Shown here piece after piece: positions 767 through 19,089 of a stretch of 49,823 nt of DNA (its first letter is position 1; each line of letters opens with the position of its first letter). Source of the DNA: Bacilli bacterium (GTDB lineage Bacteria; Bacillota_I; Bacilli_A; RFN20; CAG-826). A program made the position numbers and the translations under genes. The notes beneath the pieces were generated by a model. That model was not told the DNA's origin. It saw only the letters and a program-made list of their open reading frames with translations, and did not search any database. The stretch spans positions 1-49,823 of the forward strand of contig JAFUEZ010000012.1 in assembly GCA_017470115.1 (NCBI GenBank), written 5' to 3'.

Positions 767-2068
767 ATGATTACAAAAAATACAAAGATTCACGACACAA
801 AAAATCTTGTTGGTTCTTTACCAGCTGTAAGATATGTAAATCCAAAATATTTATATATCGCAACTGCCAATGCAAGATGTCCTAAAGCTGATATATATAT
901 TCAACCTGGTGATCACGTTGATTCTTGTCAGGTCATCGGCATGAGACATGCTGCATTTTTTGATCAACCAATTCACGCTACATGTTCTGGAACCTTTGTT
1001 GGATATGAAAAGCATTATCATAGAAATGGTAAACTCACTGATTTTATTAAAATTGAAAACGATTTTAAGGATACCTTAGATAAAAATTTGCACATAAGAA
1101 GTGATGAAGAAATAGCCGCTTTATCAAAAGAAGAAATGACTCAAATTATTAAAGACTGTGCAAATGTTGGCCTTGGTGGATCTAGTTTCCCAACTTATAT
1201 TAAATTTCAAACTGATAAACCTATAAATGTTATTTTGGTTAACGGCATTGAATGTGAACCTTATATTACAGCAGACCATAGGTTAATGCTCGAATATCCA
1301 TACAGAGTTATGGAAGGCATTAAATATACAATGCAAGCTTTTAACTGCAAAAAGGCATTAATATGCATTAAATCTAAATATAAGGATATAAAGGCTGTTT
1401 ATGATCAAGTTTTAAAAGAATATGCAGGTCAAGGAATTGAACTTTGTTGCGTTGGAAATTATTATCCTCAAGGCCGGGAAGTCGAAATGATAAAAAGCGC
1501 AACAGGCATTCAACTTAAACAGGGCGAACTTCCATCAAATAAAGGTATCATTAACTTTAATGTTTCTACAATGGTTGGAATATATAAAGCAATTAAATTT
1601 AATATGCCTGTTATTAAAAGATTTATTACCGTTACTGGCGATGGCATAATGTTCCCAAAAAACTTCAGAGTTAGAGTTGGCACATCGATAAAAGAATTAA
1701 TTCCTCTTTGTGGAGGATATAAAGATCCTGACGTAGATAAAGTTTTTATTCTTGGTGGACCAATGATGGGCGCAAGCGTTCCAAGTGATGATTGCATTAT
1801 TACAAAAACTGTTACATCAATTATTATCTTAAATAAAACAAACTATAAAGAAGAACCATGTGTAAGATGTGGTAGTTGTGTTCTTTCTTGCCCAGTAAAA
1901 TTAGAGCCAGTTCAAATTATGAATGCAGTAAAGGCAATGGATAAAGAAAGAATGAAAAAACTTAATCCAAGTAGATGTATTGAATGTGGGCTTTGCACAT
2001 ATTCATGCACATCAAAAATTCAAGTCACAGATTATATTAGAAGGGCAAAATTATTAACAAAGTTATGA
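767..2068 (+). CDS. rnfC: Rnf complex subunit RnfC (NADH-side, two 4Fe-4S clusters)
   Basis: RnfC is the peripheral NAD(H)-oxidoreductase subunit of the Rnf complex, which couples electron flow between ferredoxin and NAD to ion transport across the membrane. The 433-residue length is normal. Visible are the nucleotide/FMN-binding glycine motif GLGGSSFPT (about residues 135-143; the family usually has GLGGAGFPT), the conserved NGIECEPYITADHRLML segment, an SLBB-like region, and two ferredoxin-type clusters, Cys365/368/371/375 and Cys404/407/410/414. It is first in the operon. Its stop overlaps the rnfD start (ATGA). The start is an ATG without a ribosome binding site, six bases after a -10 box. 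Confidence 0.95.
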   Translation: MITKNTKIHDTKNLVGSLPAVRYVNPKYLYIATANARCPKADIYIQPGDHVDSCQVIGMRHAAFFDQPIHATCSGTFVGYEKHYHRNGKLTDFIKIENDFKDTLDKNLHIRSDEEIAALSKEEMTQIIKDCANVGLGGSSFPTYIKFQTDKPINVILVNGIECEPYITADHRLMLEYPYRVMEGIKYTMQAFNCKKALICIKSKYKDIKAVYDQVLKEYAGQGIELCCVGNYYPQGREVEMIKSATGIQLKQGELPSNKGIINFNVSTMVGIYKAIKFNMPVIKRFITVTGDGIMFPKNFRVRVGTSIKELIPLCGGYKDPDVDKVFILGGPMMGASVPSDDCIITKTVTSIIILNKTNYKEEPCVRCGSCVLSCPVKLEPVQIMNAVKAMDKERMKKLNPSRCIECGLCTYSCTSKIQVTDYIRRAKLLTKL

Positions 2069-3189
2069 ACATCGTAAAAGAAACTGCTCCACATATTAGG
2101 AAAAAATCATCAGTCACAAGAATGATGGTGGATGTACTTATAGCATTAGCTCCAACGTTAATTTTTGCTATTGTTGTTTATCCTTTACAAGCGATTTACA
2201 CCTTGCTTATTTCTTTATTTGTAATGAATGGTGCTGAATTTGTTGGTGTTGGATTAAGAAATTTAATGCCTCGAGATGATCAAAAACATTCATTTAAAGA
2301 AAGATTTGAATTCGCTTATAAAGGCAAATTTGGAATTAGCAATGTTTTAACAGCATCAATTAGCGCAGTAATTTATACTTTAATTCTTCCACCTGGAGTG
2401 CCAATTTATGCGATTATTATCGGTGCTTTAGTTGGTATCATATTTGGTAAATTAGTATTTGGTGGATTAGGAAGTAATATTTTTAATCCTGCAGCAGTTG
2501 GCATGGTTTTCACAAAACTCTGCTTTGGTAGTCAATATCAATCTGTTTCAACATGGTATTATACTGTTCCTGATGTTGCAGCTGGTGCAACTTCACTTGG
2601 CTTATTAAATGGTGGAATGCTTGATAACATTACTCAATATGGTTTGAAATCATTAATTCTTGGGCAGATACCTGGAACTCTTGGTGAAGTTTATAAAATA
2701 ACAATTATAATTGGTCTTGCATATTTATTAATTAGAAGAAGTGCAGATTATAGAATCGTTGTTTCGTATCTAGGAATTTGTACATTATTAAGTTTGATTG
2801 CTGGTTTAAGTGTTTATTCGTTAAATAATGCAGTCAACCCACTTAGATTTACTGCTTATTATATGTTAAGTGGTGGAATTTTATTTGGTGCGGCATTTAT
2901 GTTAACGGATCCAGTTACATCTCCAATTAATTCGCCATCTCGTTGGATTTATGGACTTGTCGCTGGTGTTTTAACTATATTTATTAGATTATTTGCTGCT
3001 TTACCAGAAGGCGTTGCTTTCTCAATTCTTATTTCAAATATGATTGCTGTTGCTCTTGATCACTATGAATGGAGCACATCAAAATATAACTGGAAGAATT
3101 TACTTACTATGGGTTTACTTGTAGTAATTCCAGTATTACTCGTTTGGATTATTATTTCTTTTGGAGGTGTTTATAATGGGCAACTCTAA
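2065..3189 (+). CDS. rnfD: Rnf complex subunit RnfD (membrane, covalent FMN)
   Basis: This 374-residue integral membrane protein belongs to the NqrB/RnfD family. It has about ten hydrophobic segments. The flavinylation motif is visible as GATSL, with Thr176 the predicted attachment point for covalent FMN, which the ApbE encoded downstream would install. The conserved membrane segment around GSNIFNPAAVGMVF is present, as is the DPVTSPIN segment. It overlaps rnfC by four bases, and rnfG starts within its last codons. In Rnf this subunit passes electrons within the membrane between RnfC and RnfG. Confidence 0.95.
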   Translation: MNIVKETAPHIRKKSSVTRMMVDVLIALAPTLIFAIVVYPLQAIYTLLISLFVMNGAEFVGVGLRNLMPRDDQKHSFKERFEFAYKGKFGISNVLTASISAVIYTLILPPGVPIYAIIIGALVGIIFGKLVFGGLGSNIFNPAAVGMVFTKLCFGSQYQSVSTWYYTVPDVAAGATSLGLLNGGMLDNITQYGLKSLILGQIPGTLGEVYKITIIIGLAYLLIRRSADYRIVVSYLGICTLLSLIAGLSVYSLNNAVNPLRFTAYYMLSGGILFGAAFMLTDPVTSPINSPSRWIYGLVAGVLTIFIRLFAALPEGVAFSILISNMIAVALDHYEWSTSKYNWKNLLTMGLLVVIPVLLVWIIISFGGVYNGQL

Positions 3190-3694
3190 AAAATATATAT
3201 TAACCGCAATCACATTAGGCGTTATTGGTGCAGTCAGTGCAGCACTTATTTCTCTTACAAATTTAGTCACTCGTGATGCTATTGAAAAGAACAAAATTGA
3301 TAAGATTAATAAAGGTTTAGCAATGATTTATGATGAAAATAGCCAGTTTAGTGAAGCTAATTCGATTAACGGTGAAACCAAATATTTAGATTCATATTAT
3401 GTTGCTAGCAAGAACGATGAAAAGATTGGTTATGTTTTCCAAACAACTGGTTCAAATATGTATGGAAAGATTTCAATGCTTGTTGGAATTGATTTAACAT
3501 ACAATATTGGAAATGTTTATCTTGTTGTAAATGAGCAAACATATGCTCAAACATTAATTGATAACTACGTTAATCCATTAAATGATGGCTCGAGAGCTCT
3601 TGAAGATGTAAGTTGTGGAGCAACTTATGGAGCAAAACTTGTCAGAACAATGGCTGAAGAAGCTCAAAGTTGGGCTAAAGAGAACTTGAAATAA
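3176..3694 (+). CDS. rnfG: Rnf complex subunit RnfG (covalent FMN)
   Basis: The 172-residue protein has one N-terminal membrane anchor (about residues 6-28) and an extracytoplasmic FMN-binding domain. Its flavinylation motif is SCGATYG with Thr150 as the predicted FMN attachment site. The frame is open from a TTG at 3161, but that TTG lies next to the Shine-Dalgarno sequence GGAGGTG (3163-3169); the ATG at 3176 is correctly spaced from it and is the better start. The start overlaps the end of rnfD. The family member NqrC has the same architecture. Confidence 0.93.
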   Translation: MGNSKKYILTAITLGVIGAVSAALISLTNLVTRDAIEKNKIDKINKGLAMIYDENSQFSEANSINGETKYLDSYYVASKNDEKIGYVFQTTGSNMYGKISMLVGIDLTYNIGNVYLVVNEQTYAQTLIDNYVNPLNDGSRALEDVSCGATYGAKLVRTMAEEAQSWAKENLK

Positions 3695-3705: not shown

Positions 3706-4449
3706 ATGTCTAGAGAAAAAGGATACACTAAGCAAAACTTCTTAAAGGGATTATTTATTGAAAATCCTCTCTTTATCTCGGTTTTAGGTACATGTCCAGC
3801 ACTTGCTACTACAAAATCAATTGAAGCAGCAATTGGTATGGGTATTTTATTTACAATTGTTCTTATTTGTTCAAATACTTTAATTTCTCTTTTAAGAAAA
3901 CTTATTCCAGAAGAGATTAGAACTCCATCTTATATCGTGGTTATCGCAACTTTTGTTACTATTGTTAAGATGCTTACTAATGCTTTTTTACCTGAACTTT
4001 ATTCAACTTTAGGTGTCTTTATTTCACTTATTGTTGTTAATTGTATCGTCTTAGGAAGAGCTGAAGCGTTTGCTAGCAAAAATAATGTATTTGATTCATT
4101 TATCGATGGAATTGGAATGGGTGTCGGCTATACAATGGCACTTTGCATCATGGCATTCTTTAGAGAATTCTTAGGAACTGGTGGATTTGCTTTTGGCAAT
4201 ATTTTCACATTTATTCCTTACTTTAAATTACAAATTATTCCTAAGGGTTATGAAATATCACTTTTCACAACACCTGTTGGAGCATTTATCGTTTTTGGCT
4301 TAATTCTTGCAGTTATGGCTTTCTATAAAAATAGAAAAGCTGAATACCAAGCGTTTTTGCAACGTAAAGAAAGACAAAGAAAAGCTGAAGAAGCAAAGGC
4401 TAAAGCTGCAGCACTTGCTGCTCATAAACCAGTAGAGGAGGCAAAATAA
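3706..4449 (+). CDS. rnfE: Rnf complex subunit RnfE
   Basis: A six-helix membrane subunit of the NqrD/RnfE family, 247 residues. The conserved membrane cysteines are present in LGTCPALA (Cys30) and VVNCIVLGRAEAFAS (Cys113). In solved Nqr and Rnf complexes the equivalent cysteines of RnfA and RnfE share an intramembrane iron-sulfur cluster. Unusually, the protein carries a charged Lys/Arg/Glu/Ala-rich cytoplasmic tail of about 35 residues (from about residue 210, including RKERQRKAEEAKAKAAA). A good ribosome binding site, GAGGTAAAGG, precedes the ATG. Confidence 0.94.
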   Translation: MSREKGYTKQNFLKGLFIENPLFISVLGTCPALATTKSIEAAIGMGILFTIVLICSNTLISLLRKLIPEEIRTPSYIVVIATFVTIVKMLTNAFLPELYSTLGVFISLIVVNCIVLGRAEAFASKNNVFDSFIDGIGMGVGYTMALCIMAFFREFLGTGGFAFGNIFTFIPYFKLQIIPKGYEISLFTTPVGAFIVFGLILAVMAFYKNRKAEYQAFLQRKERQRKAEEAKAKAAALAAHKPVEEAK

Positions 4450-4450
4450 T

Positions 4451-5050
4451 ATGAATATATTAATCACATTTATTTTGGGCATTATTTCCTCAATGTTAAT
4501 TGATAACGTTGTTTTATCAAGATTCTATGGTATTTGTCCATTCTTAGGAGTTTCTAAAAAAGTTAAATCTGCTCTTGGCATGGGAATAGCAGTTGTCTTT
4601 GTTATTGTTTTAGCAACTCTCATTTGTTGGCCACTTTATAATTTCATTCTTGTTCCAGCAAAAATTCAATTCTTGGATACAGTTGCTTATATTTTAGTTA
4701 TCGCTTCACTTGTTCAACTTGTCGGCTTGTTCATCAAGAAATATTCGCCATCTTTATATAAAACTTTAGGTATTTATTTACCTTTAATTACTACAAACTG
4801 TGCTGTTTTAGGTGTTGCTCAAGGTAATACTGATCAAGCTTTAGATTTCTTAAGTTCACTTGCTAATGGAATCGGCACATCAGTTGGATTCCTCGTTATT
4901 ATCGTTGTTTTTAGCTGTATTAGAGTTAGACTTGAATCAGCAAATACCCCAAAAGCATTTAAAGGTTTACCAATTGCCTTAATCACAGCGGCTATTATGG
5001 CAATGGCATTTATGGGTCTACAAGGTTTATTCTCAGGAATTAATGTATGA
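4451..5050 (+). CDS. rnfA: Rnf complex subunit RnfA
   Basis: The 199-residue membrane protein of the NqrE/RnfA family is paralogous to RnfE and has six predicted helices. The cluster cysteines are in YGICPFLGVSKKV (Cys29) and TTNCAVLGVA (Cys117). The rnfE-rnfA gap is one base, with GGAGG just upstream. The stop codon overlaps the start of the next small gene (ATGA at 5047). RnfA and RnfE together form the half of the membrane core with inverted topology that carries electrons across the membrane. Confidence 0.95.
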   Translation: MNILITFILGIISSMLIDNVVLSRFYGICPFLGVSKKVKSALGMGIAVVFVIVLATLICWPLYNFILVPAKIQFLDTVAYILVIASLVQLVGLFIKKYSPSLYKTLGIYLPLITTNCAVLGVAQGNTDQALDFLSSLANGIGTSVGFLVIIVVFSCIRVRLESANTPKAFKGLPIALITAAIMAMAFMGLQGLFSGINV

Positions 5051-5247
5051 GTCAAACAGGTTATTTAATTTTGGGTATATCAATTTTAGTCGCTTTACTT
5101 ATCATCTTTGTTGTTTCGTTTGTTCTCTATAGAAGAACACCAGTTCCAAAAGGCTGTGAGAATATCAAAATTAGTGAGGAAAATTGCGCTGGTTGCACTC
5201 ATAGCGAATGTTCTTTCTATAAAAAGAAAGAAGAAAGCGAGGAATAA
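5047..5247 (+). CDS. Small Cys-rich single-pass membrane protein in the Rnf operon, unassigned
   Basis: This 66-residue protein has a strongly hydrophobic N-terminal helix (about residues 6-28), then YRR and a short cytoplasmic segment with four cysteines: Cys37, Cys47, Cys50 and Cys54, the last three in NCAGCTHSEC. It ends in a Lys/Glu tail. The gene overlaps rnfA by four bases and ends one base before the rnfB ATG, so it is translated as part of the operon. I do not recognise a named family. Helix plus four-Cys layout resembles the N-terminal part of RnfB, and an iron-sulfur cluster is plausible. It may be a duplicated or split-off RnfB-like electron carrier; that is inference. Confidence 0.8.
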   Translation: MSQTGYLILGISILVALLIIFVVSFVLYRRTPVPKGCENIKISEENCAGCTHSECSFYKKKEESEE

Positions 5248-5248
5248 T

Positions 5249-5566
5249 ATGGATATTTTATTATCAATTGTTGTTCTTTTAGGATTAGGTGTTATTTTAG
5301 GATTTGGATTAGCTGTTGCAGCTAAGATTTTATATGTAAAAGAAGATGAGAGAATTGCTGAAGTAGCAAAAAGACTTCCAAATTATAACTGTGGAAGTTG
5401 TGGATATGCTGGTTGTAACGCAATGGCTGAAGCAATTGTTACAGGAAAAGAACAGAGCTTAAAGAAGTGTAAACCTGGTAAAGAAGAAACAAACTTCAAT
5501 CCAATTATTCAGTATTTAAACGAGCATCCAAACGATGATGGATCAAAGGTAAATGTTCACTTATAG
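5249..5566 (+). CDS. rnfB: Truncated RnfB: membrane anchor plus single FeS domain only
   Basis: The 105-residue product has one N-terminal helix (about residues 3-27) and the RnfB-type FeS domain (Pfam 'FeS', the same module as in acetyl-CoA synthase accessory proteins), with NCGSCGYAGC and a following cysteine: Cys48, Cys51, Cys56, Cys74. Normal RnfB proteins are roughly 180-330 residues and carry at least two further ferredoxin-type 4Fe-4S clusters that take electrons from ferredoxin. Here the frame stops after NPIIQYLNEHPNDDGSK and apbE begins in another frame, with no ferredoxin motif in any frame. The ATG at 5249 has GAGG upstream; a longer in-frame extension from 5108 only shadows the preceding gene. 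Confidence 0.88.
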   Translation: MDILLSIVVLLGLGVILGFGLAVAAKILYVKEDERIAEVAKRLPNYNCGSCGYAGCNAMAEAIVTGKEQSLKKCKPGKEETNFNPIIQYLNEHPNDDGSKVNVHL

Positions 5567-6542
5567 ATTTAAATTTTCAAGAAAAACCCTGCTAATCTCA
5601 GGTGTTTTTTCTTTATTAATGAGTTCCTGCAGTTCAAATGCACCTATTGAAAGCAAGAATTATTTTTTTGATACGTATGTGAATTCTAGATTTTATAATG
5701 TTGAAAATAGTGTATTAGATGACGTCTATAAATTACTATCTGAGTATAACGGCTTAACTGATAATTATAAACAATCAGCTACACAAACTAGCGTTTTTGA
5801 AATCAATGAATCAAATGAAAAAATAGAAATAAGTAAGAACGCTTATAACATGTATTTAAAAGTTAAGGAACTCCAAATATCTTCTTTAAATTATTTTAAT
5901 CCGCTAATTGAAAATTTATCGAGATTATGGAAAGAGTCTTTAGATAATAAAGAAGTATTAAGTGAAACCATAATTTCATCCGAATTATTAAAAATGAATA
6001 ATTCTTCTTTTGAATTATTTAAAGAAAATTCCAAATATTATATTCAAAGAAATGGTGAAGCTAAATTAGATTTAGGAGCTTTTGCAAAAGGATATTCTTT
6101 AGATATTTTGAATGAATATTTCTTAAGCAACGAGATTAAAAATTACCTAATTGATGCGGGGAATTCATCTATCTTATTAGGAGAAAAACCTGATAACAAT
6201 GGCTATTTTACCGTTGGCCTAAAAGACATTAGCAATGCTTATTTAGAATTAAAAGATTGTTTTATTGGCGCATCTGGAGTTTCTACTCAAGGCGTTAAAA
6301 TTAATAATAAAATGTATTCGCACATAATAAATCCTTTTAATGGAAGCGCTATAAATAACTACGATTATGTTTTTGTAAAAGGCAATAATGGTGCTCTTTG
6401 CGATGTTTTATCAACATCATTTATGATAATGGACGTAGATACTGTCAAAGAATTTGAAAAAAACTATAATGTTGAAGCAATTTTATATAAAGATAGTAAA
6501 ATTATTTATAGCAATTCAAATTTGGAGATTAAATATCATTAA
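5553..6542 (+). CDS. apbE: FAD:protein FMN transferase (ApbE), lipoprotein
   Basis: ApbE transfers FMN from FAD to a Thr in RnfD and RnfG. The 329-residue protein has a lipoprotein-type signal ending in LLMSSC (predicted lipidated Cys26), placing it outside the membrane where RnfG is modified. Family motifs appear in order: KLDLGAFAKGYSLD, LIDAGNSSILLG, GASGVSTQG, YSHIINPFNG and ALCDVLSTSFMIM (equivalent to the metal-binding DALST segment). The start overlaps the end of rnfB by 14 bases and has AAAGG upstream. Its linkage to rnfD and rnfG is functionally expected. Confidence 0.93.
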   Translation: MFTYRFKFSRKTLLISGVFSLLMSSCSSNAPIESKNYFFDTYVNSRFYNVENSVLDDVYKLLSEYNGLTDNYKQSATQTSVFEINESNEKIEISKNAYNMYLKVKELQISSLNYFNPLIENLSRLWKESLDNKEVLSETIISSELLKMNNSSFELFKENSKYYIQRNGEAKLDLGAFAKGYSLDILNEYFLSNEIKNYLIDAGNSSILLGEKPDNNGYFTVGLKDISNAYLELKDCFIGASGVSTQGVKINNKMYSHIINPFNGSAINNYDYVFVKGNNGALCDVLSTSFMIMDVDTVKEFEKNYNVEAILYKDSKIIYSNSNLEIKYH

Positions 6543-6913
6543 TGAAAAGCAAAAAAATACGTAACGATTTGATATTAATAATTAGTTTGCTCGTAACTTT
6601 TGCAACTATTTTAGTAGTGCTTTATATTTCTAGAACAAGTGCGAATTTAATCGCAAATATTTATGTTCAAAATCACATCGTTAAACGTGTTTCACTAGAT
6701 GGAGAAGATCAAGAATTTAAAATTCAAGGAACAAATGGCGAATTGACAATAGCAGTTTTAAATAAAAAAATCGGTGTCAAAGAATCTAATTGCCCACATA
6801 AAGATTGTGTCAAGATGGGTTATATAGGAGAAACAAATAGGCCGATAATTTGCGCCTATAATCAAGTGTGCATTGAAATAGAAGGTGCACTTGTAAACGA
6901 TATAGAGATTTAA
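6542..6913 (+). CDS. NusG domain II-containing membrane-anchored protein
   Basis: The 123-residue protein has one N-terminal helix (about residues 10-30) and a small extracytoplasmic beta domain. It carries the NusG_II signature, here SNCPHKDCVKMGYI followed by PIICAYNQVCIEI. The two cysteines in CPHKDC and the later pair are conserved in many relatives. This is not the transcription factor NusG. Related proteins are frequently encoded beside Rnf/ApbE and Gx-transporter genes in Bacillota, as here, but their function is not established. It overlaps the apbE stop codon. Confidence 0.85.
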   Translation: MKSKKIRNDLILIISLLVTFATILVVLYISRTSANLIANIYVQNHIVKRVSLDGEDQEFKIQGTNGELTIAVLNKKIGVKESNCPHKDCVKMGYIGETNRPIICAYNQVCIEIEGALVNDIEI

Positions 6914-6914
6914 T

Positions 6915-7439
6915 ATGGTTACAACTCCAAAAATAGCATTGTTATCGATGTTAACTGCTTTAGCAGTTGTACTTTCTGTTGTCGAATCATTGTATATTAA
7001 TGTAGGAATTCCAGGCATCCGATTAGGCTTAGCCAACATCCTTATTTTATTAACTCTTTATGAACTAGGTCCAAAGGAAGCTTTAGAGGTTAATATATTT
7101 AGAATTTTTATTGCTAATATTTTTACAGGCTCTATTTTTGGAATGGGATTTTTGATGTCTATTGCAGGGGCTATTTTTTCATTTATTGCGATGTTAGTTT
7201 TCTATCTATTCTTTAAGAAATTTTCAATTATTGGTGTTAGTGTAATTGGATCAATGTTTCATTTATTTGGACAAATCCTTGTTGCGATGCTCTATATTGA
7301 GTCATTTTTAGGGGTATTAAACTACTTTGCACTTATTGGAATTTCTGGAGTTATAACTGGAATAATTGTTGGAACCATTGTTATTTTGATTCAAAAAACA
7401 AAAGTAATTGAAAAATATAAAAATAGATATAAATTGTAA
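6915..7439 (+). CDS. Gx transporter family protein (Hpre_diP_synt_I)
   Basis: A 174-residue, highly hydrophobic protein with about five helices and the signature GIPGIRLGLANILILLTLYELG near residue 30, typical of the family annotated as heptaprenyl diphosphate synthase component I or Gx transporter. The fold resembles ECF-transporter S components, so a small-molecule (possibly flavin or quinone precursor) transporter is more plausible than an enzyme. The substrate is unknown. It follows the NusG_II gene by one base and closes the operon. Only a weak ribosome binding site is visible. Confidence 0.82.
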   Translation: MVTTPKIALLSMLTALAVVLSVVESLYINVGIPGIRLGLANILILLTLYELGPKEALEVNIFRIFIANIFTGSIFGMGFLMSIAGAIFSFIAMLVFYLFFKKFSIIGVSVIGSMFHLFGQILVAMLYIESFLGVLNYFALIGISGVITGIIVGTIVILIQKTKVIEKYKNRYKL

Positions 7440-17925: not shown

Positions 17926-19089
17926 ATGCCATACACAGATTTAGATTCCTTTGAACCAGTTGCAAGAATTGTTGTAATTGGTGTTGGCGGTGCAGGAAGC
18001 AATGCCGTTAATAGAATGATTGATGAAAACATTAGAAATGTTGAATTTTATGTCGCAAATACAGATAAACAAGCATTATCTCTTTCAAAAGCACCTAATA
18101 GAGTAATTTTAGGCGAATCCATTACTAATGGATTAGGTGCTGGTGGTGAACCAAGTGTTGGTAAAGCGGCTGCTGAAGCTAGTGAAAAAGAAATAAAGCA
18201 AATTGTTCAAGGTGCAAATATGGTATTTATCGCTGCTGGTATGGGCGGTGGAACAGGTACTGGAGCATCTCCAATTATTGCAAAATATGCTAAAGAAGAA
18301 GGCGCTTTAACTGTTGCCATTGTTACGCGTCCTTTCTCATTTGAAGGAACTAAGCACACAACTTACTCAATTGAAGGATTAAATGATTTAAAATCAAATG
18401 TCGATAGTTTAATCGTTGTTTCAAATGATAAATTGCTCATGAATTCAGGAAATTTACCAATTGGTGAAGCTTTTTCAGAAGCAGACAAAATTCTTGCACA
18501 ATCCGTTAAAACAATTACAGACTTAATTTTAATGCCAGCTGTTATCAATTTAGATTTTGCTGATGTTAACAATACACTTAAAGATAGCGGAATTGCTTTG
18601 ATTGGATTTGGTATGGGTCAAGGCGAAAATAGAAGTGAAGACGCTGCAATGACAGCTTTAAATTGCCCATTAATTGAACAATCTGTTCAAGGAGCAAGAA
18701 AAGCTATTTGTCATGTTACTTGTGGTCCTCAAGTTTCGCTTTATGAATGTCAAGAAACTGTTAATAGAATTATTGAAGCAAGCGGTGGACAACTTGATCT
18801 TAAATTTGGTATTTCCATTAACGATCAATTAAGTGACCAAATTATGCTCAGTATTATCGCAAGTTCTTTTACAAACGATGTTACTTTTGGAATTTCAAAA
18901 TCTCAATCATCAAATACGCAACAAAATAGCCAATTTTCATTATTTGATAACGATTCTTTTGCAAAGAATCCACAAACTAAAGGTGCTGAAGGTCAAGAAG
19001 TTTCTAATGAAAGCGGTGAAACTCCAAAACAAGATAATTACCTTGATGGAGATAGTATTATCCCAGATTTCTTGGAAGGTAAATTTTAA
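17926..19089 (+). CDS. ftsZ: Cell division protein FtsZ
   Basis: The tubulin-like GTPase that forms the division ring, 387 residues. Seen: GVGGAGSNAVNRM (GTP loop), the tubulin signature GGGTGTGA (107-114), the T7 loop in NLDFADV, and the C-terminal conserved peptide SIIPDFLEGKF joined by a Gln/Asn/Ser-rich linker. That peptide is the docking site for FtsA and other partners. The frame is open from a TTG at 17920; AAGGAG (17913-17918) is correctly spaced for the ATG at 17926. It is 11 bases after ftsA. Confidence 0.98.
   Translation: MPYTDLDSFEPVARIVVIGVGGAGSNAVNRMIDENIRNVEFYVANTDKQALSLSKAPNRVILGESITNGLGAGGEPSVGKAAAEASEKEIKQIVQGANMVFIAAGMGGGTGTGASPIIAKYAKEEGALTVAIVTRPFSFEGTKHTTYSIEGLNDLKSNVDSLIVVSNDKLLMNSGNLPIGEAFSEADKILAQSVKTITDLILMPAVINLDFADVNNTLKDSGIALIGFGMGQGENRSEDAAMTALNCPLIEQSVQGARKAICHVTCGPQVSLYECQETVNRIIEASGGQLDLKFGISINDQLSDQIMLSIIASSFTNDVTFGISKSQSSNTQQNSQFSLFDNDSFAKNPQTKGAEGQEVSNESGETPKQDNYLDGDSIIPDFLEGKF

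Follow-up and report, generated by a model that had tools for sequence, protein, structure and literature searches.

The window, that is, the whole stretch of 49,823 nucleotides analyzed, contains an Rnf operon whose genes all run in one direction on the forward (+) strand, in the order rnfC-rnfD-rnfG-rnfE-rnfA-66-aa open reading frame (ORF)-rnfB-apbE, followed by genes for a NusG domain II-like protein and a heptaprenyl-synthase-I/ECF-like protein. The first gene (767 to 2068) encodes an RnfC of 433 aa (TIGR01945, 1.5e-100) with an FMN/NADH domain and two 4Fe-4S motifs, CX2CX2CX3C, at residues 365 to 375 and 404 to 414. RnfD (2065 to 3189; 374 aa; PF03116, 2e-74) carries the flavinylation-type motif DVAAGATS. 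RnfG (3176 to 3694; 172 aa) was recognized by TIGR01947 (3.2e-9), and the Pfam scan gave no FMN-binding match for it; in its flavinylation-type motif, DVSCGATYGA, a Cys replaces the usual Ser/Thr before GAT, and the RnfG of a related locus (L102) likewise shows the Cys form, CGATFGA. RnfE (3706 to 4449; 247 aa; PF02508, 2.1e-62) and RnfA (4451 to 5050; 199 aa; PF02508, 3.2e-57, and TIGR01943, 3.5e-72) contain candidate [2Fe-2S] cysteines at C30 and C113 and at C29 and C117, respectively. The 66-aa ORF (5047 to 5247), whose ATG overlaps the rnfA stop codon, encodes a small cysteine membrane protein belonging to a conserved family and lies directly before the short rnfB gene (5249 to 5566). The end of rnfB is in turn overlapped by apbE (5553 to 6542), encoding a lipoprotein-like flavin transferase (PF02424, 1.8e-37). 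The last two genes encode the NusG domain II-like protein (6542 to 6913; PF07009, 4.2e-22) and the Hpre_diP_synt_I/ECF-like membrane protein (6915 to 7439; PF07456, 9.9e-32), a pair that recurs beside rnf genes elsewhere (for example, at loci L009, L012, L018, L021, L102, and L119). The initial annotation had described the complex apart from RnfB, together with ApbE, as intact, and the family matches, the core cysteines of RnfA and RnfE, and the motifs of RnfC bear this out.

The RnfB encoded at this locus has 105 aa. It matched the PF04060 FeS family (E value of 2.1e-12, Pfam) and, among the NCBIfam models, NF005503 (1.2e-21), while its score with the TIGR01944 rnfB model was 63.3 bits, under the cut-off of 68.7. 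A single N-terminal transmembrane helix and a four-cysteine FeS domain are both present, and the gene stands in the company of those for RnfA, RnfC, RnfD, RnfE, and RnfG. In the AlphaFold model (pLDDT of 92.9), a helix spanning residues 2 to 27 is followed by a compact domain, and residues 33 to 93, which include C48, C51, C56, and C74, can be superposed on the N-terminal [4Fe-4S] domain of the corrinoid iron-sulfur protein with Z scores of 8.2 to 8.5. Alignment with solved RnfB chains was limited to their residues 5 to 77 (9eri_B), 4 to 67 (7zc6_B), and 6 to 75 (8ahx_B), so that only the helix and the first FeS domain are represented. No C-terminal ferredoxin or polyferredoxin module was found, the protein ending at residue 105 with no Fer4 match. 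Thus, this RnfB consists of one helix plus one whole domain and ends where other RnfBs start their polyferredoxin module.

The missing module is not encoded in another frame nearby. A scan of the six frames of the window for CX2CX2CX3C ferredoxin motifs gave only two plausible matches, at 1859 and 1976, both belonging to RnfC; two further matches, at 17973 and 30532, appear to be coincidental. Because the apbE start (5553) falls within the 3' end of rnfB, a lost ferredoxin module could not be accommodated, and no frame downstream could be restored by correcting a sequencing error. The proposal that RnfB is reduced to a helix and one FeS domain, with no ferredoxin modules encoded before apbE, was therefore confirmed by the family match, the structural alignments, and the six-frame scan.

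A short RnfB proved to be the norm among relatives, as the initial annotation had suggested should be checked. An RnfB-type FeS match was found in 22 of the 59 genomes of the order examined, in short frames in all 22 cases. Across the class, FeS matches were obtained in 166 of 296 genomes, and the RnfB-type frames among the matches listed were almost all 93 to 130 aa long, these figures resting on the best-scoring places of each genome; the longer frames that were read belonged to different proteins, hydrogenase-like ones for example. The complex is patchy in the genus of the window, only two of 26 genomes (G000 and G005, of G000 to G025) having Rnf. All of 148 distinct short RnfBs kept the four cluster cysteines (100%), and I86, Y89, and L90, in the helix that follows the fourth of these, were retained in 92 to 94%. 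For its part, the dN/dS ratio of rnfB, calculated by the NG86 method against the two nearest genomes, was far below 1, with dS near saturation. The operon also occurs in named isolates of Holdemania, Holdemanella, Allobaculum, Longibaculum, and Anaerorhabdus. A literature search for short or truncated RnfB, to which subscription papers were mostly out of reach, returned nothing relevant. The short-RnfB form of Rnf, a ferredoxin-driven ion pump central to energy conservation, spans an extensive set of Bacilli, both gut and environmental.

These data bear on whether the gene has simply decayed or been mis-sequenced, leaving the complex inactive. Such a reading could appeal to a length below that of every textbook RnfB and to the missed TIGR01944 cut-off, yet it is hardly credible for a protein that keeps the same length throughout the class and in named isolates, with invariant cysteines, a conserved C-terminal helix, purifying selection, and an intact operon around it. 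It has already been refuted by the comparative data, and truncation or sequencing error is ruled out by the short lengths throughout the relatives.

Two departures from the short form were encountered in the class. In family f14 (L103/G097, L104/G106, and L105/G115), RnfB measures 184 to 194 aa and has two tandem PF04060 FeS domains after the helix, an intermediate architecture. The relatives of the order all being short, full-length RnfB, which would have counted against a lineage-wide form, was restricted in the class to a single genus of family f12 (L119, L120, L219, L220, and L221; five genomes), at about 267 to 277 aa, one of the five proteins being truncated where its contig stops. An end-to-end alignment with the RnfB of Clostridium tetanomorphum was obtained for the one tested, and sister genera within the same family have the short protein. 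The RnfE tree does not separate transfer from ancestral origin for this genus.

The initial annotation had passed over the small protein encoded between rnfA and rnfB. Its model shows a helix at residues 3 to 30, followed by a positively charged stretch, C37, and a cytoplasmic tail with the motif CX2CX4C (C47, C50, and C55). In 28 relatives the positions of C47, C50, and C55 were invariant and that of the first cysteine, C37, was not; family members are 55 to 100 residues long, and the protein was claimed by no Pfam or NCBIfam family. An apparent fusion to RnfA at L018 was an artifact of a 44-N gap. The profile of the small protein matched that of the short RnfB at 94% in hhalign, but controls with column-shuffled tails equaled this score, the similarity stemming mostly from the helix. 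Common descent with RnfB is therefore not claimed, and the idea of a degenerate RnfB copy was discarded. One genome has an extra copy (L103:3148-3348), separate from that of its rnf operon, about 800 bases past the rnfB end and adjoining a gene for a CsoR-like regulator.

The small protein closely follows Rnf. In the order, it was found in all 22 Rnf genomes versus one of 37 without Rnf, the latter a marginal match (E value of 6e-4), and in the window's genus the gene was clear only in the two Rnf-bearing genomes of 26. In the class, 157 genomes gave RnfA/E-type as well as FeS matches, and 142 of these had the small protein, several of the 15 misses being diverged copies or incomplete genomes; conversely, Rnf-Nqr core genes occur in 142 of its 149 carriers (Fisher p of 8e-48, a value that ignores shared descent, the genomes being phylogenetically non-independent). 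In a collection of named organisms, scanned for the motif TP[KV]PEGCE and thus covering the copies that bear it, 79 of 80 loci had an rnfB of 92 to 119 aa directly downstream of the small gene; these loci belonged to Erysipelotrichia isolates and metagenome-assembled genomes (MAGs), one Acholeplasmatales MAG, and two Leptotrichiaceae MAGs. In the latter (L137 and L147), labelled Leptotrichiaceae (Fusobacteriota), the cassette of rnfA, small gene, and short rnfB is present; their RnfE falls among Bacilli sequences in a quick tree, which points either to transfer of the complete cassette or to wrongly labelled bins. Several families have the small gene at an unlinked site, where it adjoins genes for a deaminase, a uracil-DNA glycosylase, or other proteins and still accompanies Rnf.

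Two groups of genomes allowed the association to be narrowed. Families f16 and f19 contain second operons of the RnfA/E type (L226/G159, L227/G221, L228/G089, and L229/G254) that are Na+-NQR-like; NqrF is encoded in the three for which this region was covered, and neither a linked small gene nor a linked NqrM-like gene was found in these operons. G221, the one genome inspected that had appeared to carry Rnf without RnfB, owed its RnfA/E-type genes to such an NQR-type operon. The absence of a linked small gene from these operons indicates that the small protein is not a general maturation factor for RnfA/E-type proteins. In the genus with full-length RnfB, rnfA and rnfB have no small gene between them, and none of the five genomes gave a profile match; each of the five RnfE proteins has a C-terminal cysteine tail, KKEF-C-X2-C-X5-C-X4-C, a feature not seen in the RnfE proteins read from short-RnfB relatives. 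Should this tail be equivalent to the motif of the small protein, the latter protein would act on the RnfA/E side of the complex rather than stand in for the missing RnfB module. This control rests on a single genus and thus represents one evolutionary event at most.

Regarding the electron donor, Fer4 matches in the genome comprised RnfC, pyruvate:ferredoxin oxidoreductase (PFOR; 1,215 aa), HydA- and HydB-type subunits, a second hydrogenase-like protein, a large flavoprotein, and a 58-aa one-cluster soluble ferredoxin, and the genome encodes [FeFe]-hydrogenases. Of the 22 Rnf genomes in the order, 20 had PFOR. It had been proposed that either a separate ferredoxin-like protein docks on the short RnfB or another donor is used. 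The first proposal, under which the module lost from the rnfB gene would be permanently docked as a separate protein, draws on the fact that solved RnfBs carry such a module and that the present one is cut at a domain boundary. It is nevertheless improbable, given that the Fer4 matches are accounted for by the proteins named above, and no orphan RnfB-type ferredoxin domain appeared among the matches listed, at the sensitivity of a search with one family HMM in a genome about 96% complete; neither was a ferredoxin gene seen beside rnfB in the loci read. The second proposal, a donor such as flavodoxin or a dehydrogenase, takes its appeal from the missing classical ferredoxin-acceptor domain and appears very improbable, since PFOR, hydrogenases, and a soluble ferredoxin are all encoded, PFOR is nearly universal in the Rnf genomes of the order, and nothing positive spoke for another donor. 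Hence, of the original interpretation, the missing input module stood, the separate RnfB-type ferredoxin did not, and the alternative donor gained no positive evidence. Ferredoxin is retained as the default donor, and its direct docking on the short RnfB is the simplest reading of a genome that encodes the 58-aa ferredoxin, PFOR, and [FeFe]-hydrogenases.

Taken from sequence and models, the reading that we favor, with a probability of about 60%, is that of a complete, functional, lineage-specific minimal Rnf in which ferredoxin docks directly on the FeS domain of RnfB and the 66-aa protein is an obligate accessory. The almost constant presence of a small cysteine partner points to a stable, distinct version of Rnf rather than a broken gene. 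RnfB would keep the shuttle part of the subunit, a membrane helix tethering a mobile [4Fe-4S] domain beside the [2Fe-2S] cluster of RnfA and RnfE. Pyruvate:ferredoxin oxidoreductase would reduce the soluble 58-aa one-cluster ferredoxin, which would then dock directly on this FeS domain, and electrons would proceed through RnfA/E, RnfG, RnfD, and RnfC to NAD+, coupled to ion export. The 66-aa protein may be a membrane-bound iron or FeS assembly factor for RnfA/E or RnfB, as NqrM is for NQR. For the broader proposition, that Rnf throughout the class dispenses with the RnfB input module, is fed by ferredoxin, and includes a new obligate small cysteine protein, either inserting the RnfA/E or RnfB cluster or holding an extra one, we consider the odds to be even.

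The small protein could instead be a redox subunit, its CX2CX4C motif and upstream cysteine binding a cluster, so that together with the short RnfB it would form a two-protein replacement for the input module. Several observations are consistent with this: the CX2CX4C spacing is identical to that of the RnfB FeS domain, the gene lies directly before rnfB in most loci and accompanies short RnfB, with no separate gene in the five genomes with full-length RnfB, and it tracks Rnf while being unlinked to NQR operons. Against it, several families do not conserve the fourth cysteine, several have the gene away from the rnf operon, the 94% profile match is no higher than that of the column-shuffle controls and is due mainly to the helix, and the genus with full-length RnfB, one event at most, retains a cysteine motif on RnfE. 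A redox role is thus rather doubtful, and the assembly role was ranked slightly above it, on account of the unlinked gene, the variable fourth cysteine, and the RnfE cysteine tail where the gene is missing.

A large natural group lacking the polyferredoxin module reveals the portion of RnfB that is indispensable, and the short-RnfB complex is a minimal one suited to testing ferredoxin docking, made experimentally accessible by the cultured named isolates. The 66-aa family is a candidate builder of the intramembrane [2Fe-2S] cluster of Rnf, a counterpart to the role proposed for NqrM in NQR.

Among known proteins, NqrM (DUF539, PF04400), for which a role in supplying NqrD/E with iron has been predicted (PMC6209661; PMC12174285), resembles the small protein in its size (about 70 to 80 aa), in its single N-terminal helix followed by a short cysteine motif, and in being encoded by an accessory gene that belongs to a homologous pump and has ApbE nearby; the cysteine spacing differs. 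No PF04400 match was obtained among the 28 small-protein members scanned or in 295 genomes of the phylum, although the control genomes gave no match either, and comparison by hhalign with NqrM database records gave a weak similarity (17%, P of 0.0014; 45% in a second set-up). Identity with NqrM was not supported. The FeoB-associated Cys-rich membrane protein (PF12669) also combines one helix with cysteines, and weak matches to it were found in 11 of the 28 members (best E value of 0.0018). The member shown scored 16.2 bits, under the family cut-off of 27, and, unlike the FeoB-associated protein, the small protein has Rnf genes as neighbors, FeoB not being present in the loci read; this assignment was rejected as well.

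As for RnfB, in known Rnf complexes its mobile FeS domain passes electrons to the [2Fe-2S] cluster of RnfA/E, while acceptance of electrons from ferredoxin is assigned to its C-terminal domain, which holds two to seven clusters past the mobile domain in every solved complex (PMC12174285). This assignment counts against direct docking of ferredoxin on the flexible domain. The N-terminal FeS domain of the corrinoid iron-sulfur protein (2ycl and 4c1n) shares its fold and cysteine pattern with residues 33 to 93 of the short RnfB, but it belongs to a soluble protein and another protein context. The RnfBs of Acetobacterium woodii and C. tetanomorphum (9eri and 7zc6) have the same N-terminal helix and flexible FeS domain, CX2CX4C...C, and continue into a C-terminal module of several [4Fe-4S] clusters, whereas the protein described here ends after the first domain. 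The RnfB of Azotobacter vinelandii (8ahx) likewise shares the helix and FeS domain; it is the smallest in the review and still carries a two-cluster C-terminal domain (PMC12174285), of which the short RnfB has no equivalent.
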